Shown one piece after another: positions 8,009 through 63,845 of a stretch of 64,000 bases of DNA. The notes under the pieces are model-generated. The model searched no databases, had not been told where the DNA came from, and worked only from the letters and a program-made list of their open reading frames with translations. The stretch lies in NCBI GenBank assembly GCA_947441615.1, contig CANEUH010000016.1, positions 25,405-89,404 of the forward strand, read 5' to 3'. The stretch's first letter is position 1. The number at the start of each line of letters is the position of its first letter. Made by a program: the position numbers and the translations under genes. This DNA comes from Bacteriovoracaceae bacterium. Its GTDB lineage: Bacteria; Bdellovibrionota; Bacteriovoracia; Bacteriovoracales; Bacteriovoracaceae.

Positions 8009-8049
8009 TACTGCCATGAACTCTCTGACTAGACTTCTCACTATCTTAA

Positions 8050-14726: not shown

Positions 14727-14844
14727 AGGTAAAAGTATCTAAAATAAATCAGGAACTGAAAATCAATTTAGTATCTTGATTTGTTTGGTCAGTATTAAAA
14801 TTTGCCTCATTCGTTTTTTTTTTGCGTAATGATACAATTAAAGG

Positions 14845-15708: not shown

Positions 15709-15720
15709 ATTTTTTACAAA

Positions 15721-15746
15721 AAAAAAGCCCCTTGCGGGGCTTTTTT
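15721..15746. terminator. Bidirectional rho-independent terminator
   Basis: AAAAAAGCCCC-TTGC-GGGGCTTTTTT: an 11-bp stem with A and T tracts, so it works in both directions for the convergent hydrolase and protease genes. Confidence 0.9.
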
Positions 15747-15748
15747 GA

Positions 15749-16999: not shown

Positions 17000-17232
17000 G
17001 TCTCCTCCTTGAGAAATGGTATATGTTAAAAGCTTAGGCCTGAATTGGACTTATGCCATCTTACATTTACTCTCATTGTAAGGACTTATGAAGCTGACAA
17101 AAACTATTGTGTCGGAGATTTTTACAGTTGTTCTGATGGACAAGCTCATACGCACAACCTAAAATTGGCCCTGATTGTTTCAGTCGGCTAATGGATTAAT
17201 TATTTTTTAGAAATCATCTTTGGGAATCACAA

Positions 17233-21400: not shown

Positions 21401-21566
21401 AGGTGCTGTTCCGTTGGCATTCTCATTGGGTCCTGGTTCAGAGTCACTCAGACCAATGGCCGTCTCAATTATTTGGGGTAGTTTGATTTCAACAGTACTG
21501 ACTTTAGTTGTCGTTCCATCAATGTATTCATTATTCTCTAGAAATAAAGATCATAAGACCCTGTAG
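18471..21566 (+). CDS. RND-family efflux pump inner-membrane subunit
   Basis: AcrB/MexB/MdtC-type proton-driven exporter of 1031 residues. Family features: N-terminal ISIKKPVFAWMLMGALIIFG as TM1, MGVSQLPDVDFP, porter-domain segment VYEGAAPEVME-like, TM4 proton relay LSLSIGIVVDDAIMVLENIYRH (Asp-Asp about 404-405), GGVIVGKYSKEG, and C-terminal LMGIVKKNSILLVDFTNQR with the conserved Lys pair. Two six-helix halves with large periplasmic loops. Substrate not predictable. The periplasmic adaptor must be encoded elsewhere. Confidence 0.92.
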   Translation: MSLSDISIKKPVFAWMLMGALIIFGFLQMRKMGVSQLPDVDFPMVNISVAYEGAAPEVMELDVIDPIESAVLSVEGVKTLTSSAKLGSANISVEFNLDKNIDVAVSEIQARINQANRFLPENIDPPIISKVNPDDRPILWLAVSSETMERKEMMAYVRDHLKDQFQTVSGVADVFLGGYVEPNLRVWAKNEKLNQYQLTVTDIISAIQSEHRESPSGFIENPEKEMNVRTLGEATSVDEFKKLPIIRRGGAPNYVPIFMRDVVDIEEGLADVRRLSRVQGLTAIGLGIRKQRGSNAVDVAKGVRKKMEDISNNLPPGLKIGLNFDSTKFIEDSIHELSFTMILSAVLTAFVCWLFLGSFTATINVILAIPTSILGAFIILKYMNFTLNTFTLLGLSLSIGIVVDDAIMVLENIYRHHEEGKDKVRSSLDGANEISFAALSATVAIIAIFFPVALMDGIIGKFFFQFGVTISVAVGLSYIEALTLTPMRTSQFMEESKRQTKIGHAADLFFEKIINLYKSSLDFALNHRVKVLVASTLFFIASIFLVKLIPKEFVPAQDTSSFMVRIKTPDGSSLAFTDKVTKDIESYFSKREEVQKYFVSVGGFGGGGSSESNTAMMFVTLKNPKDRPMDIKLKRSLKQTELIDIYRNEFKSFKEGKVFVQDTSQGGFSASGRGFPVEFTLIGGNWQTLVGASKKTMDEMRQSGIYTDVDTDYKESVMEIQIFPNREEAKLHGVSVQEIGTTINALIGGVIVGKYSKEGHRNDIRIKMANASKDKMDDLKKIYVRNTRGELVNLLEVVTIKELPGVQTINRRQRSRAVTIFSGVAPGKSQGEALEKVREITKKHLPPGYSLVESGASETFKETFTSLLFALGIGILIAYMILGAQFNSFIDPVTVLVALPFSISGAFLGLWVQGQSLNMYSMIGLILLMGIVKKNSILLVDFTNQRREESLSTLDALKDACPKRLRPILMTTFSTVAGAVPLAFSLGPGSESLRPMAVSIIWGSLISTVLTLVVVPSMYSLFSRNKDHKTL

Positions 21567-29741: not shown

Positions 29742-30554
29742 ATGAAAATCACCGGTCTGCTCTCTAAGATGTCGACAAAATCTGAAGAAATTGTTCGCTA
29801 TACCTTACCTTTTCAGGAGGGGCATTTTGACCTTAATTCTCTTCTTGGAAAGGAGATTAAACTAACGCACTCGGGCAAGATTATTTGTGGCAATTGTAGC
29901 AAACAGATAAAAAAATCCTATGCCGAGGGGTATTGTTACCCTTGTACCATGAAGCTTGCTGCTTGTGATCTTTGTATTCTCAAACCAGAGTTGTGCCATT
30001 ATGAAAAAGGTACTTGCCGAGAGCCAACTTGGGGAGAAGAGCATTGCTTAAAACCCCATACTATTTATCTCGCTAACTCTTCTGGTTTAAAAGTTGGAAT
30101 CACTCGTAAAGTAAATGTTCCCTACCGTTGGATAGATCAAGGAGCAACTGAAGCTCTGCCTATTATTGAAGTGAGTGATCGATTAACCTCAGGGCGAATT
30201 GAAGTTCTTTTTAAAAAACATATTGCAGATAAGACAGACTGGAGAAAGATGCTTAAGGGCGAACCAAGTCCTATTGATCTAAATGAATGGAAAGAAAAAC
30301 TGTTAAAAGAATTGGAAGGAGAACTAGAGAATCATCAATATAAAGTACTAAATGAGTCGGTTCAAAAATTTCATTATCCTATTCTTAAGTATCCTGAAAA
30401 AGTTTCATCCATCTCACTTGATAAAACACCAGAATTTTCTGGAGTTCTTTTAGGCATCAAAGGTCAGTATTTAATTTTTGATCACGGCGTATTAAATGTT
30501 CGTTCACATACAGGGTATGAAATGACTCTAGAGGAAATCCATGCAACAACCTAA
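29742..30554 (+). CDS. DUF2797 protein with zinc-ribbon-like cysteines
   Basis: Matches the DUF2797 family by its layout: GKIICGNCSKQIKKSY with two CxxC-like pairs (ICGNC, YCYPC), then a Cys-rich segment (ACDLCILKPELC, GTCREP, EHCLKPH), then the conserved HTIYLANSSGLKVGITRK and YRWIDQGA. The HTIYLANSSGLKVGITR segment recalls GIY-YIG nuclease folds, but function is not established. Overlaps the aminopeptidase gene by 14 bases, so co-expressed. Confidence 0.8.
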   Translation: MKITGLLSKMSTKSEEIVRYTLPFQEGHFDLNSLLGKEIKLTHSGKIICGNCSKQIKKSYAEGYCYPCTMKLAACDLCILKPELCHYEKGTCREPTWGEEHCLKPHTIYLANSSGLKVGITRKVNVPYRWIDQGATEALPIIEVSDRLTSGRIEVLFKKHIADKTDWRKMLKGEPSPIDLNEWKEKLLKELEGELENHQYKVLNESVQKFHYPILKYPEKVSSISLDKTPEFSGVLLGIKGQYLIFDHGVLNVRSHTGYEMTLEEIHATT

Positions 30555-33150: not shown

Positions 33151-33154
33151 TGAA

Positions 33155-33253
33155 CTATTTCTTTTTTACTGGCACCGGCCTTAGGGTCGGTGTCGCTTTA
33201 ATAACAGCTGCTGTGCCAGCAATGACCAATATTCCTGCAACGATGAGTTCCAT
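33155..33253 (-). CDS. Small single-span membrane protein (32 residues)
   Basis: A short frame with an excellent ribosome site (AAGGAGAC, 5-6 bases before the ATG). The product begins MELIVAGILVIAGTAAVIKA, one membrane helix, followed by a basic Pro/Arg/Lys tail (TPTLRPVPVKKK). Hydrophobic helix plus basic cytoplasmic tail is typical of real small membrane proteins. It ends just after the pepN stop, convergent with it. No homologue known to me. Confidence 0.55.
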   Translation of the reverse strand: MELIVAGILVIAGTAAVIKATPTLRPVPVKKK

Positions 33254-33418
33254 ATAAAGTCTCCTTCCGGGGGACATATGAGTCTTATCGACACTTTCTC
33301 TTTTTATTTTGCTACTAAGATGACTGGATTCAAGCTTTTTCTCCTCAAACCCTTGAAAATAGTGCTACACTCTAAGGGATCTCTAATGGATTCAATGACT
33401 TAACTAAACAGGATGGAT

Positions 33419-34846
33419 ATGCAGGCCATACTATCACTAAGGCAAAAAGCTCTAAAAATTAATCTCGCTAAGAAGTATTACGGAACTTTCGCAGAAATAG
33501 GCGCGGGCCAGGAAGTTGCAAGGCACTTTTTCCAGGCCGGTGGATCATCAGGATCGATTGCAAAAACCATCTCTGCTTACGACATGACTTTCTCCGATTC
33601 CATTTATGGGAAAGAACCCTTTGGGCGCTATGTTTCTCAATCTAGACTCCTTCAAATGCTAGAAAAAGAGTTCCAGCTTTTAGATGAAAGACTTAGTGAC
33701 AGCCGAGGTAAGGACCACGCATTTTTTGTTTTTGCAGATACAGTGGCGGCCTTAAATTTTCAAAGAACGAACGACGCTCACGGCTGGCTTGGGATGCGTT
33801 TTCAAACCACTCCCGGCTCAGAAGTTTCTGATGTCGTTATTCACGTGAGAATGCTGGATCCGCAAAATGTTCTTCAGCAAGATGCTCTTGGTATTATTGG
33901 GTTAAATTTGGTTTATGCTTCATTATTTCTTCAAGAAGATCCCGAAGCTTTTATACGCTCTTTGATGGATCATTTGGATAACACAAGAATTGAAATTAAT
34001 TTCATTCGATTTGGTGGTAAGGCCTTTGTTGGAATCGATAATCGACTGATGAACCTTTACTTACTTAATCAAGAATACACTCAGGCGATCATGTTTGATG
34101 AAGAAGGTCATGTCGCTCTTCCGAATGATATTCTTTATAAAAAAGACGTTTTGGTTGTGAGAGGATCTTATCGTCCACCGACGTTAGTTAGTTTTGACAT
34201 GATTAAAACGGGACTCACTAATTTCGCAAGCGATATAGGCCAGTCCGATCAAGATATTGTGACGATTTCTGAAATAACCATGTCTACACTTAAAGCTGAC
34301 AGTGGTGAAATAGCGAAAGAAGATTTTTTGGCCCGGGTTGATTTGATGTGTAGTATGGGGCAAAAAGTTTTAATTACAAATTTTCCTCAATACTACAAAC
34401 TCTCTAGTTACTTTTCCCAATTAAATGTTCCTCATTTGGGCCTCGTCCTTGGAATTTACAATTTCCAGCAGATCTTTACGGATAAGTATTCCAATGTTGA
34501 GGGAGGGATCCTTGGAGCTCTAGGGCAGCTTTTTCGAGAGAATGTCAAAGTTTATATCTATCCCTATAAATCTGAGAAGGGTTCAATTGAGACCCTTTTT
34601 AATTTGGTTGTTCCAGCTGAATTTAATCATCTTCTAGATCACTTGAAGGGGATGAAGCAGATTCACAATGTCGAAGGATTTAATAAAGATATCCTTCATA
34701 TTTATTCTTCCAAAGTTCTACAGATGATTGTTCAAAATGAGCCAGGCTGGGAGGAGATGGTGCCTCCATCTGTCGCAAAGGCGATTAACGACAAATGTCT
34801 CTTTGGACATCCCTGTTTTGTTGGTAAGAAAAATGGGATGGTTTAA
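33419..34846 (+). CDS. Conserved cytoplasmic protein of unknown function
   Basis: 475 residues, no signal or membrane segments. The N-terminal block YYGTFAEIGAGQEVARHFFQ followed by GGSSGSIAKTISAYDMTFSD recurs in a widespread bacterial family that I recall being annotated inconsistently (including as a nicotinate-nucleotide adenylyltransferase), so I leave function open. Start at the second ATG, 5 bases after AGGA; an ATG at 33413 is the alternative. A complete MITE-like element begins 8 bases after the stop. Confidence 0.7.
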   Translation: MQAILSLRQKALKINLAKKYYGTFAEIGAGQEVARHFFQAGGSSGSIAKTISAYDMTFSDSIYGKEPFGRYVSQSRLLQMLEKEFQLLDERLSDSRGKDHAFFVFADTVAALNFQRTNDAHGWLGMRFQTTPGSEVSDVVIHVRMLDPQNVLQQDALGIIGLNLVYASLFLQEDPEAFIRSLMDHLDNTRIEINFIRFGGKAFVGIDNRLMNLYLLNQEYTQAIMFDEEGHVALPNDILYKKDVLVVRGSYRPPTLVSFDMIKTGLTNFASDIGQSDQDIVTISEITMSTLKADSGEIAKEDFLARVDLMCSMGQKVLITNFPQYYKLSSYFSQLNVPHLGLVLGIYNFQQIFTDKYSNVEGGILGALGQLFRENVKVYIYPYKSEKGSIETLFNLVVPAEFNHLLDHLKGMKQIHNVEGFNKDILHIYSSKVLQMIVQNEPGWEEMVPPSVAKAINDKCLFGHPCFVGKKNGMV

Positions 34847-34854
34847 TTAAACTT

Positions 34855-35090
34855 AACTGACCCAATTGAATGGTGTTAAAAAATCGTTTCATTTGTGAAC
34901 TTAAAAATTCACCAGTCTCATCCTGGCGCAAGATTTAGTAAACACTACTGAGCTAGTGCCAGGATGAATCAAGTAAATATAGTAGAAAGGGTTTTTGTGT
35001 CCTCGTTCAGGGCAGTTTCTCAAAATAAGTTTTAAATCTCGGACATTACTGGTGAATTTTAAGATTCAACACCATTGATATGGGTCAGTT
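34855..35090. mobile_element. Complete 236-bp MITE-like element (copy A)
   Basis: Ends are inverted repeats: AACTGACCCA at 34855 and TGGGTCAGTT at 35081-35090, extending inward with GGTGTT and AAAATTCACCAGT matched on both sides over about 60 bases with gaps. Inside, TCATCCTGGCGC (about 34918) pairs with GTGCCAGGATGA (about 34957). An 11-bp direct repeat TAATTAAACTT flanks it (34844-34854 and 35093-35103), compatible with a target duplication, although the right copy starts 2 bases outside the inverted end. It carries only a 23-residue frame (34964-35035), so it is non-autonomous. Half copies lie at 1030 and 8050. Confidence 0.75.
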
Positions 35091-35564
35091 CATAATTAAA
35101 CTTGGGTTCTCTAATTCAAGGAGTTTTTTTTTCATCACTTCCCCTCCTTGATAAGAGTAGGGATTTTTAATTCCTGTGACTCTGTGACAAGGTATCATGA
35201 TGGGTAAGGGGTTATTTCGACAAGCACTTCCTATCGCTTGGTAGGCCTTCGAATTAATTGATAAACCAAGGTCCTTATAGGTTCTTGTCTCTCCATAAGG
35301 AATTCTTTTTATCTCTTGTAGAATTTTGTCATGAAATGGATTCAGTTCGTAAAGTTTCAAGGGAAGATTCAGCTCCTGAGTTAACCCATTTAAGTATGAA
35401 TAAACCTCGTGATAACAGTTGATTGAAAATTTATTTTCTTGTGAGGGGACTGTATCTTGGGAAAATTGGATTGAAATAATTTCGTCATCAAAAGTTGTTA
35501 TTAATTTTAAACAACCAATAATTGGGAGTGTTGGAAGAATAATAGTCTTGAATTGTTCTTTCAT
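35085..35564 (-). CDS. ogt: Methylated-DNA-protein cysteine methyltransferase
   Basis: Suicide DNA-repair protein removing alkyl groups from O6-alkylguanine. Active-site motif PIMIPCHRVTG with acceptor Cys126, preceded by the helix-turn-helix region IPYGETRTYKDLG and SKAYQAIGSACRNNPLP. 159 residues from the ATG at 35564, chosen because the longer frame to 35627 would overlap the divergent ligase gene. The stop codon TGA lies inside the inverted end of the MITE-like element, so the last residues may be supplied by the insertion. Confidence 0.92.
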   Translation of the reverse strand: MKEQFKTIILPTLPIIGCLKLITTFDDEIISIQFSQDTVPSQENKFSINCYHEVYSYLNGLTQELNLPLKLYELNPFHDKILQEIKRIPYGETRTYKDLGLSINSKAYQAIGSACRNNPLPIMIPCHRVTGIKNPYSYQGGEVMKKKLLELENPSLIMN

Positions 35565-35589
35565 GTTCTTATGTTTATCATAATTATAA

Positions 35590-36474
35590 ATGAAAGTCCT
35601 GACTTCACCTTTTTTAAATCCCTTCATAAACCTTGCCCTAGAGGATTATTTTCTTAGATCTCAAGATGATCTTCCTATTTTATTTTTTTATGTGAATCGT
35701 CCGTGCGTTGTCTTAGGTCGGTTTCAAAATCCATGGCTAGAGACGAATCTATCTTATTTGGTTAACAATGATATTTGGCTTGTAAGAAGGCAAAGTGGCG
35801 GGGGATGTGTCTTCCACGATGAAGGGAATTTAAATTTTAGTTTTATCACACCATCTGGAACAATTGATCGAACCAAACATGCTGAACTTTTAAAAGAGGC
35901 CTTTAAAAAAGCGGATATCCATTTAACGATCTCTCCTCGAAATGACTTATGGCTTAACGATTTAGCTGGAATTCCCAAAAAGATTTCTGGATCAGCTTAT
36001 AAACAAACAAAGGATGCCTCCTTTCATCATGGGACATTTTTAGTAAGTTCTGACCTTAATAAGCTTGAAGAAAGCTTAAAGCACACTCTTGTTCCAAAAA
36101 GCTCAAAGTCTATTTCCTCTGTGCGCTCAAAGGTTATTTCACTTCAAGAAATTCATCCTGGTGTTGAAATTAAAGACGTGATTGATCTCGTATCGCATTA
36201 TCTGAATACGATTCCCATCGAGCTCACAGGAGAGTATCTCTCCCATCCCTTAGTTCAGGATAGTTTTAATCAATTGATTCACTGGGATTGGTTATGGGGT
36301 GAGACTCCACTATTTGAGCTTCAAAATGGACTTGAAGTTAGAAAGGGGATTATCCAATCAACTGGTAAAAAATTTGATCGAGATTCGATGAGAAATGAGT
36401 TAGATCAAGCCGATGTAGAGCGATTTTTTCCAGACTTTAGTGAGCAGCACAGGTCGAGCAACCAGATTTTTTAG
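35590..36474 (+). CDS. Lipoate-protein ligase A
   Basis: Attaches scavenged lipoate to E2 and H proteins, in the cytoplasm. Family signature: NLALEDYFLRSQ, CVVLGRFQNPWLETN, RRQSGGGCVFHDEGNLNFSF (lipoyl-AMP binding), and KKISGSAYKQTKD with the catalytic Lys region; HGTFLVSSDLNKL follows. 294 residues, with a short C-terminal accessory domain. Divergent from ogt with a 25-base spacer; no ribosome site is obvious. Its 3' end overlaps the convergent small gene by 38 bases. Confidence 0.9.
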   Translation: MKVLTSPFLNPFINLALEDYFLRSQDDLPILFFYVNRPCVVLGRFQNPWLETNLSYLVNNDIWLVRRQSGGGCVFHDEGNLNFSFITPSGTIDRTKHAELLKEAFKKADIHLTISPRNDLWLNDLAGIPKKISGSAYKQTKDASFHHGTFLVSSDLNKLEESLKHTLVPKSSKSISSVRSKVISLQEIHPGVEIKDVIDLVSHYLNTIPIELTGEYLSHPLVQDSFNQLIHWDWLWGETPLFELQNGLEVRKGIIQSTGKKFDRDSMRNELDQADVERFFPDFSEQHRSSNQIF

Positions 36475-39001: not shown

Positions 39002-40720
39002 ATGAAAAAAGTGTCCATGTTGGGATTTTTGGGGCTAGCGGTTCTTTCTACAAGTGCTTTTGCGAAAATGTCGGGGCAGGATGCTCCTTATTTCCCTGGA
39101 GAAGTGTTAGTTAAGGTTCACCAAGGTGAGGAATCAAGACTCCTGAATAAACTTAACCGCCTGGGATCTGAAGTCAAAAGATCCATGAAGCTTTTATCTG
39201 GTAGTTACTTCCTACTTAAAACTCATTCACTCGCGACGAGCTCTCTTGTTTCTCTATTGGAAAATCAGCCAGAGGTTGATTTTGCTGAACCCAACTACAT
39301 TTATAAAATGATCGGTTCAACCCCGACTGTTGAAAGTATTCTGACTGGATCGATCAGTGAAAACTATAGTTCAATGGCCCCAACTGATCCTCTTTATGGA
39401 AAACTCTGGGGACTAAAAAATACTGGCTCAAATGAGCCAGATAGAAATGGTGGAAGCTCAACAACCCCTGGAGTCTCTGGTGCGGATGTTGAGGCCGAGA
39501 AAGTGTGGTCCATTACTCGCGGGTCAAAGAAAGTAGTCGTAGCTGTTATTGATACTGGTATTGATTACAATCACCCGGACTTAAAAAACAATATTTGGAT
39601 CAATGAAAAAGAGATCCCTGGAAATAATATCGATGATGACTCTAATGGGTACGTAGATGACATCCACGGATGGAATGCTCACGGTAAAAACGGAAATCCC
39701 ATGGACGGGAATTCCCATGGAACCCATTGCGCAGGAACCATTGGAGCTGAACATAATAACGGCATTGGTGTTGCGGGAGTGATGTCAGACGTGACTCTTA
39801 TGGCAGTTAAGTTTCTCTCTGATGAAGGTTCAGGGTCCCTTGCTGATGCAGTTGAGGCCATTGACTATGCTACAAAAATGAATGTCGATGTGATGTCGAA
39901 CTCATGGGGAGGAGGAGGATTTTCTCAGGCCCTTGAGAACTCCATTAAGGCCGCTAAAGATAAGGGTATCGTTTTTGTTGCAGCGGCCGGGAATGATAAT
40001 AGTAACAACGACTCTAGGCCCTCTTATCCAGCGACATACCAAGTGGATAACGTGATTAGCGTTGCCTCTCATACAGCTCAAGATGTTCTTTCTTCTTTTT
40101 CAAACCTAGGAAAAAGAACGGTTCATGTCGCTGCTCCTGGATCCAATGTTTTATCTTCTACACCAAATGGTGAATATAAAGTTTACTCTGGAACTTCCAT
40201 GGCAACTCCCCATGTCTCAGGAGTTGTGGGACTTCTTATCTCTGAGATTGGGCGTCTTCCAGTTCTAGAGCTACGAAACCGCTTAATGGCGACGACTGTT
40301 CCGGTTTCTTCTTATAGAAAGACAACGGTAGCTGGTGGCCGAGTGAGTGCTTATAATTTCCTTACTGACACACGTATTCCTCGCCAGGGGCCAGATGAAA
40401 ATGCATGGAGAGTTGAAAAGCTTTCTGAGGTTTTTGAGACAAGTCACCCATACTTAGATAATACCAAGCTTACTAAAAAATACTCTTTTCCTGGTGCAAA
40501 GTACGTGAAGCTTGTGATTGAAAAATATGATACCGAATCAAGTTATGATTTTATTACGATCAAAGATGCTAAGGGAGCGGTCGTCGAGAAAATTTCTGGT
40601 TCTGGTCAGAAATATGAAACTGATTACGCTGAGACTGATTCCATCAGCATTGAATTCTCTTCTGATTCAAGCCAAACCAAATGGGGAACAGTCATTAGAG
40701 AAGCAAAAGTCATTTACTAA
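39002..40720 (+). CDS. Secreted subtilisin-like serine protease
   Basis: Exported S8 protease of 572 residues. Signal peptide MKKVSMLGFLGLAVLSTSAFA; I9-type propeptide (PGEVLVKVHQGEESRLLNKL to VDFAEPNYIY); catalytic triad Asp in VAVIDTGIDYNHPDL, His in NSHGTHCAGTIG, Ser in SGTSMATPHVSGV. The C-terminal 110 residues (YVKLVIEKYDTESSYDFITI, IEFSSDSSQTKWG) form a CUB-like beta domain. Ribosome site TAGGAGAG. Likely a prey-degrading or matrix protease. Confidence 0.93.
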   Translation: MKKVSMLGFLGLAVLSTSAFAKMSGQDAPYFPGEVLVKVHQGEESRLLNKLNRLGSEVKRSMKLLSGSYFLLKTHSLATSSLVSLLENQPEVDFAEPNYIYKMIGSTPTVESILTGSISENYSSMAPTDPLYGKLWGLKNTGSNEPDRNGGSSTTPGVSGADVEAEKVWSITRGSKKVVVAVIDTGIDYNHPDLKNNIWINEKEIPGNNIDDDSNGYVDDIHGWNAHGKNGNPMDGNSHGTHCAGTIGAEHNNGIGVAGVMSDVTLMAVKFLSDEGSGSLADAVEAIDYATKMNVDVMSNSWGGGGFSQALENSIKAAKDKGIVFVAAAGNDNSNNDSRPSYPATYQVDNVISVASHTAQDVLSSFSNLGKRTVHVAAPGSNVLSSTPNGEYKVYSGTSMATPHVSGVVGLLISEIGRLPVLELRNRLMATTVPVSSYRKTTVAGGRVSAYNFLTDTRIPRQGPDENAWRVEKLSEVFETSHPYLDNTKLTKKYSFPGAKYVKLVIEKYDTESSYDFITIKDAKGAVVEKISGSGQKYETDYAETDSISIEFSSDSSQTKWGTVIREAKVIY

Positions 40721-55726: not shown

Positions 55727-56125
55727 GTGGAGCAAAGAGAAAAGAAAATCCACGCTGTCTTTTACAAATCAGAAAGTGGCAACGAGCCTGTAAAAGATGA
55801 ACTTTTAATACTTGGCCGCCCAACAAAAACGACGATCGGTGAGGATATTAAGTTTATTGAATATAACTGGAAAGTTGATACGCCTTATGTTGATCAACTT
55901 AAAAAAGGAAACGGTTCAACTGAGAAGACGATTTATGAAGTCAGATCTAAAGTTAAAGATGGAAACAACAAAAAAGAATACCGAACTCTCTTTTTTGTGT
56001 TTGAAAACTTAATGGTCCTAACTCATTTATTTTTGAAGAAGACCCAAAAGACTCCCAATGCTGAAATCGATGTCGCTTGGGATAGAATGAAAAGATGGAT
56101 GAAAGATCAAAGGAGCAAGTCATGA
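55727..56125 (+). CDS. HigB/Gp49-like toxin
   Basis: 132 residues of the RelE-superfamily HigB/phage Gp49-like group: IYEVRSKVKDGNNKKEYR is the core strand pair, followed by RTLFFVFENLMVLTHLFLKK and TPNAEIDVAWDRMKRW. Such toxins cleave mRNA on the ribosome. Start at the GTG behind TAGGAGT. The stop overlaps the antitoxin ATG by 4 bases (toxin first, as in higBA). Confidence 0.82.
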   Translation: MEQREKKIHAVFYKSESGNEPVKDELLILGRPTKTTIGEDIKFIEYNWKVDTPYVDQLKKGNGSTEKTIYEVRSKVKDGNNKKEYRTLFFVFENLMVLTHLFLKKTQKTPNAEIDVAWDRMKRWMKDQRSKS

Positions 56126-56427
56126 AAAAAAATAAACACACGGGAAGCTCGTTTGATGAATTTTTAAAAGAAGAAGACATCTATGAAGAAGTAACCGCTC
56201 GTGCTTTGAAAAAGACTAGCATCTATGAGCTTGAAAAAATTGTTGCTGGGACTCGAGGTTTGAAAAGTAAAATCCGTGATGCCTTAAATGGCAGTCCATC
56301 TATGGTTGAAAGAGTATTAAGTGATAATCCTCACGTCGAATATGAGACTCTTGTTAGAGCTGGATTAAGTGTTGGATACGCACCAGTAATTAGCTGGGTT
56401 CCAGTTGATAAGCTTAAAAAAGCCTAG
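56122..56427 (+). CDS. HigA-like antitoxin, unusual C-terminal part
   Basis: 101 residues. The N-terminus GSSFDEFLKEEDIYEEVTARA is the typical HigA start. The expected classical HTH is not obvious; the C-terminal part (VERVLSDNPHVEYETLVRAG, LSVGYAPVISWVPVD) is different from common HigA. Ribosome site AAAGGAG. Presumed to bind the palindrome at 55681. Confidence 0.7.
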   Translation: MKKNKHTGSSFDEFLKEEDIYEEVTARALKKTSIYELEKIVAGTRGLKSKIRDALNGSPSMVERVLSDNPHVEYETLVRAGLSVGYAPVISWVPVDKLKKA

Positions 56428-56859: not shown

Positions 56860-57195
56860 ATGAACACGCTCTCCAACATGGACCGCATGAATTTATCCAA
56901 TGTAAAGGTCTTACGAAGGGTCAGAGAACAGCTCAAGCTAACCAAAGTTGAGCCGGCGAGAAAGCTTAAGGTTTCTGTTAAGACCATAGACCGAATTGAA
57001 AATGGAGAAGGCCCAATAACAGAAAGCAAGATCAACGAAGTTCTTAGCTCTCTAGGGATAAGAGTTGAGGAGTTTTTAAAGGTCAAGAAATGTCGAGGCT
57101 CATTTCGAAAGAAGCGAGAAAGGCTTGTTCCATAAAATGCTTTTAGGCGGAGTTATAAACATGTCATCACCAAAGAGGTGCAGGTTCTCAAGCTC
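56860..57195 (+). pseudogene. Decayed copy of the XRE regulator gene
   Basis: Open for 91 codons (56860-57135): MNLSNVKVLRRVREQLKLTK, then VSVKTIDRIENGEGPI, one HTH domain matching the first half of the intact gene at 53076. A frameshift and stop follow, after which LRRSYKHVITKEVQVLK is still readable at about 57138-57195, the linker of the intact protein; the second HTH is lost. Good ribosome site (AAAAGGAG), so the single-HTH fragment could still be made. The copy at 63639 is close to it in DNA sequence. Confidence 0.7.
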
Positions 57196-57379
57196 TGGCA
57201 TTTCAATATCAAAAATCAAACTAATCGGGCATAGGTATCTGCTATAATTCTTTTAAAAATTGGTGTGGTTCTTTAAAGGCATCAATTTGGTAATTGCAAT
57301 TTTTAATGTGAGATTTAAAAATCAAATGATTGGTAGTCATATCATCAACTAAAACAATTCTTTTCTGACTAGATGTCAT
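57185..57379 (-). pseudogene. Response-regulator receiver domain remnant
   Basis: A 45-codon frame (57379 down to 57242) encodes KRIVLVDDMTTNHLIFKSHI and YQIDAFKEPHQFLKEL, the start of a CheY-like receiver with its acidic Asp pair. After a stop, another frame at about 57225-57190 gives ISLIFDIEMPELEN, the phospho-acceptor strand (Asp). So the gene is frameshifted and then cut off at its junction with the XRE remnant. A ribosome site (AAGAGGA) survives. Confidence 0.65.
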
Positions 57380-57460
57380 GAAATCCTCTTTTTTATAATT
57401 TTTTTGCCTTTTTAGTGATTTTCTTGAAAGCTTTTGGGTATTTTGATGTAAATTATTTAT

Positions 57461-58708
57461 ATGATGTCTAGTTTGGTGAACGGTTTACTCTACTCCAAGA
57501 GAAAAATAGCAGTTATTTTACCTTTAGAGGATGGGTACTGGCCGAGTTGTCAAAATATTCTTAATAATTTGATTTCGGCGTTTATATCTGTAAATGACAA
57601 ACTTGATTTTGAGTTTTTTAGATTTAGTGGAGATGCCACAGAAGAATTTATCAGTTCAATACTAAATTCCCATCAATCTACTCATTTTGAACATCTTTTA
57701 TATCTAGATCCTTACCATCACCCTTCAAATTTTTTTGAAAAAATTTTCAGCATCTCAAGCTTAAAGAATATAAAGTTGAGTGTGGTTGTTTATGGTAATT
57801 TTCTTAAGGATTTTATCAAGTGGCATTCTTTTTTAATATCTAATCAAAATGAAATGAGTCTTATTGTTGCCTCTGATGCTCAGAAGAAATTATTGGAGCA
57901 ATTTTTTTTAGCTGACATTCATGTCATACCATTTCCTGTGGACTCATCTGTCTTTCATCAAAAAAAACGTAGTCATGGGAAAAATGGAAATGATTTAATT
58001 TTTGTTTTTGCCGGCAGGCTTTCTCATCAGAAAAACATTTATTCTTTGATAAAGTTTTTTGCAAAAGCCAAAGACGAAAACGTTCTAGGCAAGGATTTTA
58101 AACTAAAACTTATTGGTCATTTTGATGACCTATACCTTCCATTTTCTGATTCCTCTGCCCCTCTTGGAACTTATTTTCATGAAATTTTTTATGCTCTAAA
58201 GAGGGAAGTCTGCGCTGATTTTTTTGAAAATCACGTCCAGTTTTTGGGTTCACTTTCACCACAAGAATTAGCTCAAGAATTTGGAATATGTGATATTTTT
58301 ATTTCTTTAAGTACTTTTAGTCATGAAGATTTTGGTCTTGCCGCGGCTGAGGCTTTAGAATCAGGCCTATACGCCATCTTGACCAAATGGGGGGGGCATT
58401 CATCTTTTAAAAATCTTTATCCCGAAAGAGTTAGTCTGATTGATTTGGTGCCTTCGTCCACAAGCTTTGAATTGAGATTTGATGATTTCAAAAAAGTTCT
58501 TTTAGAAACAGTTTCTAATTATGAATCTAAAATTTACCATTCAGTCCTTAACCAAAAACATATTGCAGACTTATACTTGAGTCATTTCTCGACTTGTAAG
58601 CCTAGTATCCCTCAAGTTTTAACTAATTCACATGATTTGATGCTCAAAGTGAGAGCTTCAGAAAATGACAAATACTCACTTGAGGTTTTAAAAAATTATG
58701 CTCAATGA
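57461..58708 (+). CDS. GT4-type glycosyltransferase
   Basis: Retaining GT-B glycosyltransferase, 415 residues. Donor-binding half shows LIFVFAGRLSHQKNIYSLIK (about 180-200) and the EX7E-like FSHEDFGLAAAEALESGLYA (about 287-306). No membrane segment, so it acts in the cytoplasm on a soluble acceptor. First gene of the Pro-Gly peptide cassette, starting only about 80 bases after the receiver remnant; no ribosome site is clear, and a weak TTGAAA / TGTAAA promoter pair ends 8 bases before the ATG, so it may be leaderless. It overlaps the next gene by 11 bases. Possible role: glycosylating hydroxylated residues of the peptide (inference). Confidence 0.85.
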   Translation: MMSSLVNGLLYSKRKIAVILPLEDGYWPSCQNILNNLISAFISVNDKLDFEFFRFSGDATEEFISSILNSHQSTHFEHLLYLDPYHHPSNFFEKIFSISSLKNIKLSVVVYGNFLKDFIKWHSFLISNQNEMSLIVASDAQKKLLEQFFLADIHVIPFPVDSSVFHQKKRSHGKNGNDLIFVFAGRLSHQKNIYSLIKFFAKAKDENVLGKDFKLKLIGHFDDLYLPFSDSSAPLGTYFHEIFYALKREVCADFFENHVQFLGSLSPQELAQEFGICDIFISLSTFSHEDFGLAAAEALESGLYAILTKWGGHSSFKNLYPERVSLIDLVPSSTSFELRFDDFKKVLLETVSNYESKIYHSVLNQKHIADLYLSHFSTCKPSIPQVLTNSHDLMLKVRASENDKYSLEVLKNYAQ

Positions 58709-59585
58709 TTTATTTGATTTTAAATTAACTAAGGACTTCCTCTCTCATCGGGCCCCTCTTTTTAGAAGCTTTCAGGGGTTTTCTGAGCAGGTAGGGATTT
58801 TATCAGATGATTATTTTTCTCTTCTAAACCCAATGTTTTCTATCTGTATTGATGATCTTTCAGTCTTGTCACCGTACAAGGTTGTTTCTTTTCGAGATGG
58901 CTTTTTAGGTTTAGGCTGTTTTTTTTCTCGTTTCCCACTCCCTCCAAAGAACTTTCGAACTTTTATCGGTGTCCCGGCCTATCTAGCTTCTGTGGTCCCA
59001 AAATATTGGAGAGAACATATTTATTTTTATCAGTTCAAATTAAAAAAACCTGGTGCCAGTCAATTTTTGACAATTTTCCAATTACCTGATTTAGATTACG
59101 GATTTGGAAATACGAGACAATTAAATAAAATCGAGGGGCTAGTTCAAGATAATGATTTTCAAGATTTTTCGAAAGTGGATTTAAATCTATCTCATTTTTT
59201 TTCACAGGATCACATTGACTCTTTTGATTTTAAAGCTAGATCTGTTCCCCTTGAGGATTTACTCTCAAAGATTGATCTTAAAGGACATTATGCTTTTTTT
59301 CCAATTGAGCCCTTTGTCGTTTATGATCATTTTTTAATTCATGCATTGATGTCAAAAAATGCTCAAGTAATGACACCTTTAATCTCTATGAGAGTAGATG
59401 ATAAATATGATTTATCTCTTTTTCACGAAGTTCATATTTCATTCATGCCTCCCCGGGACTTCGGAGATACTTTTAAAGATTTTTTAAGAGTCTGGAATGG
59501 TTCCAATGATCTTTTTTTTAGAGATCCAACGTCTCTTAAAAAATATCGTGAACTTTTTGAGAAAGAGTTTATTCTAAGAAAATAA
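58698..59585 (+). CDS. Unknown protein of the Pro-Gly peptide cassette
   Basis: 295 residues, not recognised. No signal or membrane helices; rich in Phe, Tyr, Asp. Notable segments: LSHRAPLFRSFQGFSEQVGI, VPKYWREHIYFYQFKLKKPG, LPDLDYGFGNTRQLNKIEG, YAFFPIEPFVVYDHFLIHAL. Overlaps the glycosyltransferase by 11 bases, so co-translated, and its 3' end overlaps the antisense pqqD-like gene by 17 bases. Probably a tailoring or scaffold protein of the same pathway. Confidence 0.65.
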   Translation: MLNDLFDFKLTKDFLSHRAPLFRSFQGFSEQVGILSDDYFSLLNPMFSICIDDLSVLSPYKVVSFRDGFLGLGCFFSRFPLPPKNFRTFIGVPAYLASVVPKYWREHIYFYQFKLKKPGASQFLTIFQLPDLDYGFGNTRQLNKIEGLVQDNDFQDFSKVDLNLSHFFSQDHIDSFDFKARSVPLEDLLSKIDLKGHYAFFPIEPFVVYDHFLIHALMSKNAQVMTPLISMRVDDKYDLSLFHEVHISFMPPRDFGDTFKDFLRVWNGSNDLFFRDPTSLKKYRELFEKEFILRK

Positions 59586-59865
59586 TTTTTTCTTCTTTAA
59601 GTTGATTTATGAAGTTATTGAAATCATTTTCAAACTTATCATGATTTGGCTTAAGTTTTTCTAGGCATTCTTGGTAAAGAGTTGCAGTACTTATTTTTTC
59701 GGCACCTTTCTCGTCAATCATCTTCCAGATTTTTGCAGCGAGACCATTAATTTTAAAATAGTGATTATCTTCATTTAGGAAAACAATAAAGATCTCTGTT
59801 CCTTCTAAGTTTGTTTTAAAGATGACTTCCTCACTGACTTTAAAGTTAAAACTCTGGCCTGACAC
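59569..59865 (-). CDS. PqqD-like RiPP recognition element protein
   Basis: 98 residues matching the PqqD/RRE fold: VSEEVIFKTNLEGTEIFIVF as the first strands, then HYFKINGLAAKIWKMIDEKG, the hallmark PqqD segment (L/I-N-x-x-A-x-x-I-W), and a C-terminal helix pair ending FINQLKEEKIIFLE. PqqD proteins bind leader peptides and present them to modifying enzymes. GTG start with GGAGA 6 bases upstream. It lies antisense, overlapping the 3' end of the unknown gene. Confidence 0.82.
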   Translation of the reverse strand: MSGQSFNFKVSEEVIFKTNLEGTEIFIVFLNEDNHYFKINGLAAKIWKMIDEKGAEKISTATLYQECLEKLKPNHDKFENDFNNFINQLKEEKIIFLE

Positions 59866-59896
59866 AAATTCTCCGATTTCAGCTGTTTATTTTCCT

Positions 59897-60796
59897 ATGC
59901 CTTCATTATACGATGATGAGGTGAGCATAATCAAAAAATTCGAAGAAAATTTATTAAATGCGTGGTCCCAGAAGGGCTTTGATCTAGGTCTTTTTCCAGA
60001 TCTTTCTGCAGAGCTTCTTAAAGAAACTCATTTTCCAGATCCCATGCTTCTCCTGCAAGAATCATTATTTGATATGCCTTTTAGAAGTCAGAATCACTCC
60101 CGAGGGGTGTTTGCTGATCTGCCATTTACTTTGGTTAAAAACGAGCATTTTAGTATTGATCTTTTTGTGTGGCTTCATGCTCATACCTCTATTCATGATC
60201 ATCCTTTTGTAGGGGCTTTTAAGATCCTGCATGGTTCTTCGAGGCATTTAGAGTACGATTTTAACCATTTGGAAGAGTTAGAGAGTTGGCTTCTTAAAGG
60301 GGAGCTTGTGGTTAGAAATGATGAAATGATTCAAAAAGATCATGTTCAGAAAGTTACTTTGGGGCACTCCTATATTCATCAAGTTCTGCATCTTGATAGG
60401 CCCTCTGTTACTCTTATCGTCAAATCCAATCGAGTTCGTGATTTTTTTGACTACATCTATCCGAAGTATGCTTGGGTTGATGTTCGACCTCATGAGGATG
60501 CTTATAAAAAAATGTCCTTGGTTTCGAGTTATTTCCAGTTTCACTACGATTCTGACTCAAAAAATTGTCAGCTACTGCTGGAAAAGACATTTGAGCAGCT
60601 GTCGGCTAAAGATCTTTTTTTAATGTCTTATAATTATAAGCCTTTATATCCTAGCTCTAAGTTCGAGGAAGCTCTAGAAAGGCTTTTTTCGCAAGACTTA
60701 AAGCGTTTTCATTGGTATAATGATGTGTGCCAAGAACGTGTGAAGCATTTAAATTATATTAATGAAATGAGCTCATTAATGCGGAAGGTACCGTGA
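59897..60796 (+). CDS. Cupin of the 3-His type (paralogue 1)
   Basis: 299 residues. Cupin motif 1 is TSIHDHPFVGAFKILHG (His100, His102) and motif 2 SYIHQVLHLDRPSVTLIV (His161), the three-His iron site and spacing of thiol-dioxygenase-like cupins; the helical C-terminal 110 residues are unassigned. Paralogous to the gene at 61052 over most of its length (both carry LPFTL.., SIHDH, GAFK.L). Start at 59897 gives the same length as the paralogue; a frame to 59822 exists but would overlap pqqD antisense. It overlaps the precursor gene by 4 bases. The precursor has no Cys, so a thiol dioxygenase reaction on it is excluded. Confidence 0.75.
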   Translation: MPSLYDDEVSIIKKFEENLLNAWSQKGFDLGLFPDLSAELLKETHFPDPMLLLQESLFDMPFRSQNHSRGVFADLPFTLVKNEHFSIDLFVWLHAHTSIHDHPFVGAFKILHGSSRHLEYDFNHLEELESWLLKGELVVRNDEMIQKDHVQKVTLGHSYIHQVLHLDRPSVTLIVKSNRVRDFFDYIYPKYAWVDVRPHEDAYKKMSLVSSYFQFHYDSDSKNCQLLLEKTFEQLSAKDLFLMSYNYKPLYPSSKFEEALERLFSQDLKRFHWYNDVCQERVKHLNYINEMSSLMRKVP

Positions 60797-61050
60797 GTGA
60801 TAATTCAAAATTAAATCAAGAGTCGGAGTATTTTTTTGGTGAGCTTAAAAAAATTGAGCTTTCTGAGGATGATACTGCGGTGGTTTTTTCTGCTACCCCT
60901 GGACCAGGCCCTGGAAGAACGACCCCAGGCTTTCCTATAGGTCTACCTGTTATGGTCGGTCCTAGTCCTGGTCCTGGTAGTCCTGGTCCTGGTAGTCCTG
61001 GTCCTAATGGGCCTGGTCCATCTCCATTTAGACCGGCCCCTATGTATTGA
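60793..61050 (+). CDS. Candidate RiPP precursor with collagen-like Pro-Gly core
   Basis: 85 residues from a GTG that overlaps the cupin stop by 4 bases. Residues 1-34 are a charged leader (SEYFFGELKKIELSEDDTAV region) without a signal peptide. Residues 35-85 are a core with 18 Pro, 13 Gly, no Cys or Lys, ten Pro-Gly steps and a C-terminal FRPAPMY. The DNA holds three 15-bp tandem units AGTCCTGGTCCTGGT (60964-61008, the last ending AAT) encoding Ser-Pro-Gly-Pro-Gly. Small size, leader/core layout, and position between modifying enzymes and a PqqD-like protein indicate a RiPP precursor. Confidence 0.75.
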   Translation: MSDNSKLNQESEYFFGELKKIELSEDDTAVVFSATPGPGPGRTTPGFPIGLPVMVGPSPGPGSPGPGSPGPNGPGPSPFRPAPMY

Positions 61051-61051
61051 G

Positions 61052-61942
61052 ATGACACTTCAGTTAGAAATAAAAAATCTCATCGAAAGAGTTGAATCAA
61101 GGGTCAATGATCTCAATTTTAATGTTCAAGATTTTCCTTCCTTGGCCACCGAACTTTTAAGGACTTTCGACTGGAATTTCAATCATCTTGAATTTCAAGA
61201 CTACCTCAATTCCCTTGGGCCGCTTCCTCGACAAAGTTTTGCAAGGGATGAGTTTGGAGAATTGCCTTTTACCCTTTTTCAGCATGAGAAGTTTCACCTA
61301 GATATTTATGTCTGGAATAATAATGAAACCTCCATACATGATCACCATTTCTGTGGTGCTTTTAAGCTCCTCGCAGGTCAGTCACTTCAAGTGACTTATC
61401 ATTTTGAAGAAGGGAGAAATGTCTCTCCATTGGTGGATGTGGGGACTTTAACCAAGATCAGCACCTGCTATCTTAATCAAGGTGATGTTCAAGAAATCCA
61501 ATTAGGTGAAAAATTTATTCATCGGGTGATCCATTTAGATTTTCCCACGGTGACTTTTATTTTAAGGACCCCAGATCTTAAAGATAATTTATATTCTTAT
61601 TGGTCATCAGGTTTACGTTTGAAATTTAACTTTGATCATCCAAAAATGATAAAGACACTTGATTTCTTTGATTCCATTCTCGTTTTCCATCAAGATGATC
61701 AAGATCAGAGTTTTGTAGAGAAACTCATTTATCCTATTTTAGATCAGTTTACTGTGGTTGAAATGGCGGCATGTCTCCTGAGGATGAGGTTATTTGTATC
61801 TGAACCAGTTCATAAAATGATCAAAGACTATGCTTTAAAATCTCCTTTAGCATCTGACTATGAATTGATGTTAAGTTCAATAAACAATGAGCAGAAAATG
61901 ATTCATAAATTATTATTTTTAAAGTACGTCACAAGGGCATAA
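61052..61942 (+). CDS. Cupin of the 3-His type (paralogue 2)
   Basis: 296 residues from the ATG one base after the precursor stop, so translation is coupled to it. Motif 1 TSIHDHHFCGAFKLLAG (His96, His98), motif 2 KFIHRVIHLDFPTVTFIL (His157). Paralogue of the gene on the other side of the precursor. The C-terminal half is helical (VEKLIYPILDQFTVVEMAAC). Likely a non-haem iron oxygenase or binding protein for the peptide. Confidence 0.75.
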   Translation: MTLQLEIKNLIERVESRVNDLNFNVQDFPSLATELLRTFDWNFNHLEFQDYLNSLGPLPRQSFARDEFGELPFTLFQHEKFHLDIYVWNNNETSIHDHHFCGAFKLLAGQSLQVTYHFEEGRNVSPLVDVGTLTKISTCYLNQGDVQEIQLGEKFIHRVIHLDFPTVTFILRTPDLKDNLYSYWSSGLRLKFNFDHPKMIKTLDFFDSILVFHQDDQDQSFVEKLIYPILDQFTVVEMAACLLRMRLFVSEPVHKMIKDYALKSPLASDYELMLSSINNEQKMIHKLLFLKYVTRA

Positions 61943-61944
61943 AA

Positions 61945-62862
61945 ATGCGTTTAAAAGATATTTTAGGCGGCATGGATCCTTCTCAATTTGTCCCAGAATT
62001 ATTGTTACCTGGGACACTTAAATTTTTTTCTCAATCGTTTAGGCCAGAGTGGATTATCCCTTTGGAGAAATTAGAAGATTATATTAAGAATCCTGCTCAT
62101 AAGAATTCTTTATCTCGGACATATCAAGGTCAGTTTTTCCCTCTTGTTCCCCATGGCGTTCAAGAAGAGTCTTTCTATCAAATGATTGCTCCCTTTCATG
62201 GAGCTGATCTGTGGAGAGCAATAACAAAAAATGACTCCTCAATTCATTTTCAAAATATTTTTGAATTCTGGCCTGAGCTAAAAACATTGAGTCTTGATCT
62301 TTTTAAATACACACCTTTTGGTGGCCAGTCTTACATGGTTCTATCTCATAATGTGCCTGTATCTTCATTTGGTCACCATAGTGATCCCATGGATTTATTT
62401 GCGATCCAACTTTACGGCACTAAACGTTGGAAGTTTGCCCTTGATCCTGAAGGAAACCCTTATTGTCCAGTGGAATCTGGTATCCCTTATGATCCTCTCG
62501 ACTCGGACCAAAAGTTTACTGAGTTTATTGTGAGTCCTGGCGATGTCTTGTTTGTGCCTTTCCAGATGACTCATTTTGTGGAGCAAGTTGGAAACGAACC
62601 ATCAGTTCATATCGTTTTGGGAATTACTAGAAATTTTAAGATGCAGCTTAATAATTATCTTAATATGCTTTTAAGGAAGGAGCTTTTTGACAATCAAAGC
62701 CCTTATGAATTGAGAGATCATCTTGAATCTTTTGAACATGATTTAAAAACCTTTGAGTCGAAATTGAAAATATTTTCTGAGAAATTTAAACATCAAGAAG
62801 TTTTAAAATCTTTTTTGAAAAATTCTGATGCCTATAACATCATCCGTTCTAAGAAGGGATAG
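61945..62862 (+). CDS. JmjC-type 2OG-Fe(II) oxygenase
   Basis: 305 residues of the JmjC/ribosomal-oxygenase (NO66-like) type. FGHHSDPMDLFAIQLYGTKR holds the iron HxD (His145, Asp147) and the candidate 2-oxoglutarate Lys160 (GTKRWKF); distal His210 in VPFQMTHFVEQVG; SPGDVLFVPF is the standard strand. A helical C-terminal dimerisation-like region follows. Such enzymes hydroxylate Asn, Asp, His, Arg or Pro in proteins. Two bases separate it from the upstream and from the downstream gene. Confidence 0.85.
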   Translation: MRLKDILGGMDPSQFVPELLLPGTLKFFSQSFRPEWIIPLEKLEDYIKNPAHKNSLSRTYQGQFFPLVPHGVQEESFYQMIAPFHGADLWRAITKNDSSIHFQNIFEFWPELKTLSLDLFKYTPFGGQSYMVLSHNVPVSSFGHHSDPMDLFAIQLYGTKRWKFALDPEGNPYCPVESGIPYDPLDSDQKFTEFIVSPGDVLFVPFQMTHFVEQVGNEPSVHIVLGITRNFKMQLNNYLNMLLRKELFDNQSPYELRDHLESFEHDLKTFESKLKIFSEKFKHQEVLKSFLKNSDAYNIIRSKKG

Positions 62863-62864
62863 AT

Positions 62865-63362
62865 ATGATTCCTGTTTTAAAATTAAGTCATATTTTAGCG
62901 GAAGAAGACTTTAACTATACTTTAAGCTGTATTAATAGATTTTGGAAAAGTCGAAATAAACTGATGTCTTTTGATAATGATATGTTTTATCGCTATTACT
63001 TGCATAATCCAAGTTTCTTGAAAGTTATGCATAAAAAACTTCTTCCATTGGCCCAAGAGAAATTTAAGACTGAGCTTAAAATAAGTTACTCTTTTTTGAG
63101 TATGTATAATAAAGGAATAGGAATCTGCCCCCTTCACACCGACAGGCCCCAATGCCGTTATTCGATTGATCTATGTTTGGATCAAATAAACCCTTGGCCC
63201 ATCTTTATTAATAACGTTGAATATATCCTGCAACCCAATGAGGCCCTCTTTTACTCAGGCGTTGAGCATCCTCACTACCGCAATAAAATTCAACCAGATA
63301 ACTACGTTTCCCTAGCTTTTTTCCACTTCGTAGATCCAGATTTTGAAGGCGATTTAAACTGA
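62865..63362 (+). CDS. Second 2OG-Fe(II) oxygenase, prolyl-hydroxylase-like
   Basis: 165 residues. Double-stranded beta-helix with HxD in CPLHTDRPQCRYSIDLCL (His91, Asp93) and distal His135/His137 in SGVEHPHYRN; the 2OG-binding basic residue may be Arg139. EALFYSG and NYVSLAFFHFVD are typical strands. Last gene of the cassette. With ten X-Pro-Gly sites in the precursor, proline hydroxylation is an attractive reaction (inference). Confidence 0.75.
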   Translation: MIPVLKLSHILAEEDFNYTLSCINRFWKSRNKLMSFDNDMFYRYYLHNPSFLKVMHKKLLPLAQEKFKTELKISYSFLSMYNKGIGICPLHTDRPQCRYSIDLCLDQINPWPIFINNVEYILQPNEALFYSGVEHPHYRNKIQPDNYVSLAFFHFVDPDFEGDLN

Positions 63363-63448
63363 TCCTATCTTTGTGAATTGGTTTACTCAGGTTTTCTCCC
63401 GTTTTACCGATAAGACCCTAGTTCTAATCTTTCCAAGGGGGAGGCGCT

Positions 63449-63637
63449 TTGAAGCCTTCTATTGCTTTAATTATTGCTGTCATGGCCTTGTCCCATGAGG
63501 CAAGTGCACAGTGTGACCAATTCTAAAGTGTTGGGCCTGGTATTATTGAGTGCCCCTCAGAAATTCCTCCTGAAGTCTTGAGTTTTTATCATCAAAAATC
63601 TTTTAAGCTTGAAGATCCAATTGGTGACATAGCCCTC
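63449..63637 (+). pseudogene. Remnant of a secreted protein gene
   Basis: A strong ribosome site (AAGGGGGAGG) precedes a TTG start encoding a signal peptide (KPSIALIIAVMALSHEASAQ). An in-frame stop at 63524 ends it after 25 codons; the same frame continues as GPGIIECPSEIPPEVLSFYH up to the XRE remnant. So this is the 5' end of a secreted-protein gene cut by a stop and by the join with XRE sequence. Confidence 0.5.
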
Positions 63638-63638
63638 A

Positions 63639-63845
63639 TGAATTTATCGAATGCAAAGCCCTTACGAAGGGTCAGAGAACAGCTCAAAGTCACCAGTTGC
63701 GCTCTATGGATAAGCGCTGAAGATTTTTCGATGGCAAAGAGTCGAGCATTATCTCCAAGAAAGCGGGCGTGTCTTGTAACAGAAAATACTCTTAGGCGAA
63801 GTTATAAAAATGTCATTACCAGAGAGGTGCAGGTTTTCAAGACCT
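63639..63845 (+). pseudogene. Second decayed copy of the XRE regulator gene
   Basis: MNLSNAKPLRRVREQLKVT is nearly the same as the copy at 56886, in DNA as well as protein; the middle is deleted or scrambled; then LRRSYKNVITREVQVFK matches the linker of the intact gene at 53076. Lies in direct orientation on the other side of the Pro-Gly cassette. Confidence 0.7.

Follow-up and report, generated by a model that had tools for sequence, protein, structure and literature searches.

Gene content of the cassette and its peptide

The stretch of DNA considered here, referred to as the window, comprises 64,000 nucleotides of the genome of a Bacteriovoracaceae bacterium (positions 25405-89404 of contig CANEUH010000016.1, or C16, in assembly GCA_947441615.1, or G000), and its right end coincides with the end of the contig. 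It contains a cassette of about 6 kb (57461-63362) in which the gene for an 85-residue peptide is adjoined by genes for modifying enzymes of predicted activity, namely a JmjC_2 oxygenase, two cupins resembling thiol dioxygenases, an HxD...H oxygenase and a GT4 glycosyltransferase. All eight genes listed in a preliminary description, made from the sequence alone, were recovered through their open reading frames (ORFs) and Pfam, with part of the labels corrected. The cassette opens on the plus strand with the GT4 gene (57461-58708; PF00534, 65.5 bits, E 5.5e-18) and that of a 295-residue protein of unassigned function (58698-59585), whose start overlaps the end of the former by 11 bases and which has no match in Pfam, NCBIfam or PHROG. 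They are followed by a gene for a PqqD-like, predicted leader-binding protein (59569-59865; PF05402, 35.8 bits against a cut-off of 23.4), whose family stands as first proposed but whose strand had to be corrected to minus, between two plus-strand genes. From 59897 on, the tight packing described earlier holds: CupA (59897-60796), the peptide (60793-61050), CupB (61052-61942), the JmjC_2 oxygenase (61945-62862; PF08007, 51.8 bits against a cut-off of 22) and the short HxD...H oxygenase, predicted to be of the 2-oxoglutarate (2OG)-Fe(II) type (62865-63362), are encoded on the plus strand; the first junction is a 4-base overlap and the next three are gaps of 1, 2 and 2 bases. The CupA start at 59897 is uncertain, the corresponding protein of a related genome (G024) having a Thr at the window's Met. 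The GC content is 0.48 in the peptide gene and 0.30-0.38 in the remaining genes of the cassette.

The short Pro-Gly ORF singled out in the preliminary description, which starts with GTG and is preceded by GGAAGG, is real, and goes beyond chance both in its Pro+Gly content and in the relatives that its leader has. Among the 230 window ORFs of 40-120 residues, its Pro+Gly fraction of 0.38 stands next to the 0.40 of its own antisense shadow, the following value being 0.28, and the plus-strand reading is taken because database proteins carry the same leader. A database search for the peptide returned seven variants, the window's own included, in which residues 1-33 are near-invariant (MSDNSKLNQESEYFFGELKKIELSEDDTAGVFS) and the mean pairwise identity is 0.91 in the leader and 0.49 in the remainder. 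A conserved leader followed by a variable core is the established anatomy of the precursors of ribosomally synthesised and post-translationally modified peptides (RiPPs), and by its sequence the ORF looks like such a leader-core precursor, with a leader of residues ~1-33 (60793-60891) and a Pro-rich core of residues ~34-85 (60892-61047), both on the plus strand and with a border placed by conservation. The leader holds eight acidic residues and a predicted motif for PqqD binding, EYFFGEL, and every core of the seven variants contains 2-3 Arg and is free of Lys, Asp, Glu and Cys. The tail of the core is Pro-rich and variable: it is of the Pro-Gly type in four of the seven (P+G amounting to 60% of the window's core), and in the other three (P0011-P0013) Pro is kept and most of the Gly is lost, with one PG dipeptide and at most two Gly-Pro per core and with Phe, Ser and Arg among the residues used instead. 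The longest core segment common to all seven variants, LPVMV(A/G)P, includes a conserved Met and is a possible site of modification or recognition.

It is predicted from sequence that the PqqD-like protein binds this leader. Its gene starts with GTG and has a Shine-Dalgarno-like GGAG upstream, and its family, PF05402, takes in many RiPP recognition element (RRE) domains unrelated to pyrroloquinoline quinone (PQQ), according to the accessible part of PMC12710340. In the window's own genome the family matches the window protein, that of a second cassette (L005, described below) and, weakly, two others (15.1 and 12.7 bits), and only the window protein scores above the cut-off. The gene lies antisense between plus-strand genes in both cassettes of this genome (59569-59897 in the window and 7907-8228 in L005), with 31 and 9 bases, respectively, between its start and that of the cupin gene, a shared non-contiguous operon layout with scant room for two promoters.

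Predicted oxygenases

CupA and CupB belong to the same family (26% identity), CupB with a C-terminal helical part, and their earlier designation as 3-His cupins is borne out by three metal-type His (H96, H98 and H157) that do not vary among eight aligned members of the family. The family is without a match in NCBIfam, and in Pfam up to E 10. By Foldseek (E 9e-9) its predicted model is similar to thiol dioxygenases, and its profile reaches cysteine dioxygenase chains with an E of 0.0084; the model would represent a cupin fold with a predicted 3-His iron site, as in cysteine dioxygenases, and the fact that other folds are missing from the structure-match list carries no evidential weight. The window precursor has no Cys, which rules out one of its own thiols as the substrate of the cupins; other thiols stay eligible.

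Members of the cupin family are matched in 24 of 26 genomes of the same genus. A search of the window's own genome with CupB gave three further cupins, namely CupA, that of L005 (contig C17) and a lone one without a cassette (L006, contig C9, 8470-9408), and a plasmid search with CupB gave no match. In another genome of the Bdellovibrionota (L118) a cupin relative adjoins an aKG-HExxH peptide beta-hydroxylase that scores over the cut-off, and in one of the Sphingomonadales (L056) another adjoins a DynA-type radical SAM maturase, also over the cut-off. The latter locus (7014-18250) contains, besides the CupB relative and the maturase, a B12 radical SAM protein, a dynobactin-like peptide and transporter-like proteins. 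The former (7832-11392) shares with three loci of other Bdellovibrionota (L046, L117 and L119) a recurrent set of a 285-311-residue protein (the aKG-HExxH hydroxylase in L118), a 366-residue cupin and a transporter-like protein, preceded in L118 and L119 by a small NIQ(K/N)(I/V)VRS peptide sequence, and this set looks like another RiPP-like cluster type.

In the JmjC protein, H145, D147 and H210 are invariant in four sequences, and the solved structures nearest to its profile are NO66, MINA and the L16 arginine hydroxylase. In the available excerpts, PMC12707348 presents BipG, a JmjC protein of a RiPP pathway, as a gamma-Orn hydroxylase, and PMC12710340 mentions bacterial JmjC homologues in RiPP-like contexts.

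The label of 2OG-Fe(II) oxygenase, given from the outset to the last gene of the cassette, is based on its HxD...H motif and on a Tet-like dioxygenase profile that it matches weakly (E 0.0087); in Pfam the protein has no match up to E 10. H91, D93, R94, H137 and R139 are invariant in five sequences (the window protein, the L005 copy and three phage homologues). The PHROGs label of the family, ‘ferrochelatase’, disagrees with the 2OG call and was not accepted, though it may yet be right, given the invariant HxD...H and the failure of the protein and its three phage homologues to match any Pfam family up to E 10; a 2OG-Fe(II) type is weakly favoured on the sequence features. Relatives of the L005 homologue turn up in 113 phage records, for the most part from cyanophages; among the 40 matches listed they are annotated as ‘ferrochelatase’, ‘2OG-Fe(II) oxygenase’ or hypothetical, and the phage proteins of phrog_2954 (L123, L126 and L127), labelled ferrochelatase and sharing the same motif and the same lack of Pfam matches, may be 2OG oxygenases as well.

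Related cassettes, leaders and mobility

The second cassette of the same genome, L005, comprises a YcaO protein (PF02624, 45.9 bits against a cut-off of 25.7, with a weak TOMM SagD match), a homologue of the short oxygenase, a PqqD-like gene on the minus strand (18.4 bits) and a cupin. Its precursor is a 56-residue ORF with a related leader, located ~1.7 kb upstream of the set and just before a GT2 gene, whose core ends in INCIGPITFGPFGPFGS, the C-terminus being GPFGPFGS. Two other genomes classified in the window's genus carry related cassettes: that of G024 (JAIYBW010000004.1) is complete, with 92-99% protein identity for seven proteins and 72% for the peptide, and that of G019 (CANFNN010000067.1; L045/L057) combines a pair of cupins with a TylF-type methyltransferase, a leader-bearing 56-residue ORF, a JmjC protein, a GT4, a 305-residue protein and a PqqD-like gene (14 bits). 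In G113 (L064), a PqqD protein (40.5 bits), a JmjC protein, a GT4, a 180-residue protein, two leader-bearing ORFs and a cupin are found together. A 5.7-kb contig of G115 (L058) holds a weak PqqD-like gene (16.6 bits), a KLEPK-repeat ORF, a cupin, a GT4 and an AMP-binding protein; its Pro-rich ORF was matched by none of the leader profiles, and this cassette is a weak candidate for a relative. In the preliminary description a short Pro-Gly ORF was expected in every homologous cluster: the precursors of G019 and G113 have no Pro-Gly core, so that this part of the idea falls, but each of the two has a leader-bearing short ORF, and the leader-guided part stands.

The GT4 is thus a component of the G024, G019, G113 and G115 loci too. 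The 295-residue protein has three database relatives besides itself and a poor AlphaFold2 model (predicted local distance difference test score of 38.7); the similarly placed proteins of G019 and G113 were considered as homologues, which on inspection seems plausible, and no such homology is claimed, since that of G113 gave an E of 0.012 against 0.022 for a shuffled decoy and that of G019 fell outside the best 25. As for the other enzymes, the short oxygenase accompanies all three Gly-Pro cores (window, G024 and L005), and BLAST gave no match to it in the stretches of G019 and G113; the JmjC protein is found in the four cassettes whose core contains Arg or has it nearby and has no match in L005, whose core has no Arg. 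These pairings, drawn post hoc from the sequences of five loci and with the leader/core border of the G019 and G113 precursors not established, suggest the hypothesis that the short oxygenase goes with Gly-Pro cores and the JmjC protein with Arg.

The kinship of the leaders was assessed with profiles and with shuffle tests on hand-cut leader pieces. A profile of the window-type leader, built with the L005 ORF excluded, returned this ORF as the best non-self match in the 3.26-Mb genome, with an E of only 0.106, and the score of the alignment between both leaders was reached by none of 2000 shuffles. The corresponding numbers were 5/2000 for window-G019, 7/2000 for window-G113b, 3/2000 for L005-G113b and 2/2000 for G019-G113a, and 0/2000 for both G019-G113b and G113a-G113b. 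The link between the window precursor and those of G019 and G113 is drawn from these tests, because the window-leader profile did not match them. A broader profile of six sequences, two of them from G113, was run over 368 genomes of the phylum, of which eight were matched at E 0.01 or better. Apart from ORFs already known, it brought up two short G113 ORFs outside its training set (on C60, E 4.5e-10, and on C86, E 1.5e-4), both of which keep KKEYxFxxL...LLLRAYARI and have new C-termini, and near which no convincing cassette-protein match was seen in the 12 and 19 kb fetched; because of the two G113 rows in the profile, they count as an out-of-sample success within G113 and not across genomes. 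Such stand-alone precursor-like ORFs with the cassette leader in G113 (L140, 2761-2916; L141, 9542-9745) are possible substrates in trans. Weak matches in G234 and G299 were judged to be due to chance, one ORF being antisense over the end of a flagellar gene and the other antisense to a 646-residue ORF. A separate leader search had matches at E 1 in 64 of the 129 genomes covered, but beyond G000, G024, G019 and G113 it gave only values of E 0.0057 and worse, which were likewise taken as chance.

Over 6459 nt, the block that contains the window cassette (57190-63642) shares 96.0% identity with G024, compared with 67-71% in the matched parts of a single background stretch (window 29742-36474), and because of this difference it is best read, on sequence grounds, as recently transferred horizontally. 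Stubs of the genes that flank the G024 cassette persist at the edges of the block in the window. An XRE helix-turn-helix (XRE-HTH) element (56860-57192, plus strand; PF01381) lies at the left edge and a degraded second copy (63627-63841, plus strand), with segments that are 86% and 75% identical, at the right one, and beyond both edges the element has no further match in the assembly. Left of the block, a HigB-like toxin gene (PF05973) is followed by a gene for a small protein, placed where the antitoxin is usually encoded (55727-56427).

Interpretation and relation to known systems

The RiPP-like reading proposed in the preliminary description is sustained by the conserved leader and divergent core, the PqqD domain, four predicted iron oxygenases, the YcaO cassette of L005 and the unlinked leader ORFs of G113. 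The cassette would encode a leader-core precursor beside a PqqD-like protein and these oxygenases, and its product is probably a proline-rich ribosomal peptide that has undergone several oxidations and possibly glycosylation. In the proposed mechanism, the PqqD-like protein would bind EYFFGEL and present the core to the four oxygenases in turn: the short HxD...H oxygenase would hydroxylate prolines, the JmjC protein would hydroxylate an arginine or a neighbouring side chain, and CupA and CupB would oxidise residues other than thiols, to which they are assigned because the precursor lacks cysteine. The GT4 would then attach a sugar to a new hydroxyl, and an unlinked protease, for instance a TldD/TldE pair, would take off the leader. 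Such enzyme-by-enzyme roles are guessed from the co-occurrence of genes with cores, and prolyl hydroxylation and glycosylation of the core are themselves guesses.

Several results weigh against a modified RiPP as the product. The window-type leader profile alone finds neither the G019 nor the G113 precursor up to E 10, and three pairs fail the shuffle test (window-G113a, 1791/2000; L005-G113a, 1568/2000; L005-G019, 541/2000). The PqqD-like proteins of L005, G019 and G115 fall under the Pfam cut-off, and such matches are uninformative because PF05402 is also found at E 1 in 13 of 14 control genomes (in 3 of them over the cut-off). The scarcity of Gly-Pro in P0011-P0013 means that Pro-Gly is no fixed target, the 2OG call on the short oxygenase is weak, and the protein at 58698-59585 is unexplained. 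As to leader removal and export, neither a protease nor an exporter was recognised in the cassette or in 19 kb around that of G024 (where the ORFs were read by eye, without a family search), and no Peptidase_C39 was found in the own genome, which is ~92% complete. The earlier statement that none is in the window does not hold: a subtilase (39002-40720), an M1 peptidase (30541-33150) and an AcrB-type (RND) pump (18471-21566), all at least 16 kb from the cassette, were found among eight other window proteins scanned. An unlinked TldD/TldE pair is encoded on C9, and such proteins match in 10 of 14 control genomes.

Three other explanations have to be weighed. It is unlikely that the peptide is merely bound, as a regulator or cargo, and that the oxygenases act on some other substrate, such as a surface glycan or a free amino acid: the GT4 and its 295-residue partner could fit a glycan pathway, and orphan cupin copies without a cassette appear among the 22 loci inspected, but enzyme content and core vary together between cassettes (in few loci), and the YcaO protein of L005 and the HExxH and DynA neighbours belong to families of peptide-modifying enzymes. 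A scaffold that gives up residues to form a small cofactor or metallophore, in the manner of PQQ and with the PqqD-like protein as chaperone, is improbable as well; the PqqD domain, the several oxygenases and the lack of a recognised dedicated exporter or protease in the cassette would suit it, whereas a fixed scaffold is at odds with cores whose length and residues differ among close relatives and with the several distinct precursor-like ORFs of G113, and the breadth of PF05402 noted above (PMC12710340, as accessible in part) takes weight from the PQQ parallel. Finally, a structural or surface protein of the collagen-like type, carrying hydroxyl and sugar groups, to which the Pro-Gly content would at first point, is very improbable in spite of the P+G content of the core and the predicted hydroxylase and glycosyltransferase genes, since the peptide has no collagen match in Pfam, its longest Gly-X-Y run is of 3 triplets with a Gly spacing of mostly 2-3, three variants are nearly devoid of Pro-Gly, and leader-related precursors exist without a Pro-Gly core.

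A modified RiPP, the preferred reading, has partial counterparts among known systems. According to the accessible parts of PMC12707348 and PMC12257519, pathways of the biphenomycin type (bip/bpm/pbs) likewise combine a RiPP-recognition protein with several iron oxygenases, including the JmjC hydroxylase BipG, which acts on the precursor, and the bip and bpm pathways hold an aKG-HExxH hydroxylase. Unlike them, the window cassette has a different precursor, 3-His thiol-dioxygenase-like cupins, a GT4 and a Pro-rich core, and its eight proteins include no match to the MNIO, B12 radical SAM, arginase or TldD families. L005 resembles YcaO-dependent RiPPs in that its YcaO protein is accompanied by a PqqD-like gene and by a precursor with a related leader, but no YcaO is found among the eight window proteins, and thiazole chemistry is excluded on the window core because it has no Cys. 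The predicted fold and the three metal-type His relate the cupins to cysteine and other thiol dioxygenases, from which they differ in lacking a Pfam match up to E 10 and in their extra C-terminal helices, peptide-modifying neighbour genes and Cys-free precursor. A link to the dynobactin type (NF041298, NF041295) is given by L056, whose DynA-type maturase (564.9 bits, cut-off 450) accompanies a dynobactin-like precursor below the cut-off; unlike that type, the window cassette has no radical SAM gene. The proline-rich antimicrobial peptides of animals are Pro-rich and Arg-containing, and some are glycosylated; the window core is similarly Pro-rich, contains Arg and has no acidic residues, but the cores hold only 2-3 Arg and come with a bacterial leader and a modifying cassette.

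In the open-licence literature searched, with subscription papers outside its scope, no description was found, among the papers listed, of this gene set (two thiol-dioxygenase-like cupins, a JmjC protein, an HxD...H oxygenase, a GT4, a minus-strand PqqD gene and a Pro-rich core), and a search directed at the phylum, covering titles and the beginnings of abstracts, named no such cluster among the matches listed. The product would be of the RiPP kind, with a fair chance of representing a new RiPP class. A wider proposal, possible but rather doubtful as a whole, is that of a class particular to the Bdellovibrionota in which enzymes of the thiol-dioxygenase fold have been recruited for non-thiol residues of a leader-tethered Pro/Arg core, yielding bacterial counterparts of the animal proline-rich antimicrobial peptides, with core and tailoring enzymes swapped between horizontally moving cassettes and with distant precursors served in trans.

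If true, this would extend the known RiPPs by a family from bacteria related to predatory ones, together with an oxygenase family that has no Pfam or NCBIfam match, resembles thiol dioxygenases by its predicted fold and would be unable to use a thiol of its own peptide substrate. Since cupins of this family also occur in neighbourhoods of the HExxH and dynobactin types, the characterisation of one of them could account for several unexplained clusters, and the leader profile provides a tool for finding further precursors, unlinked ones included.

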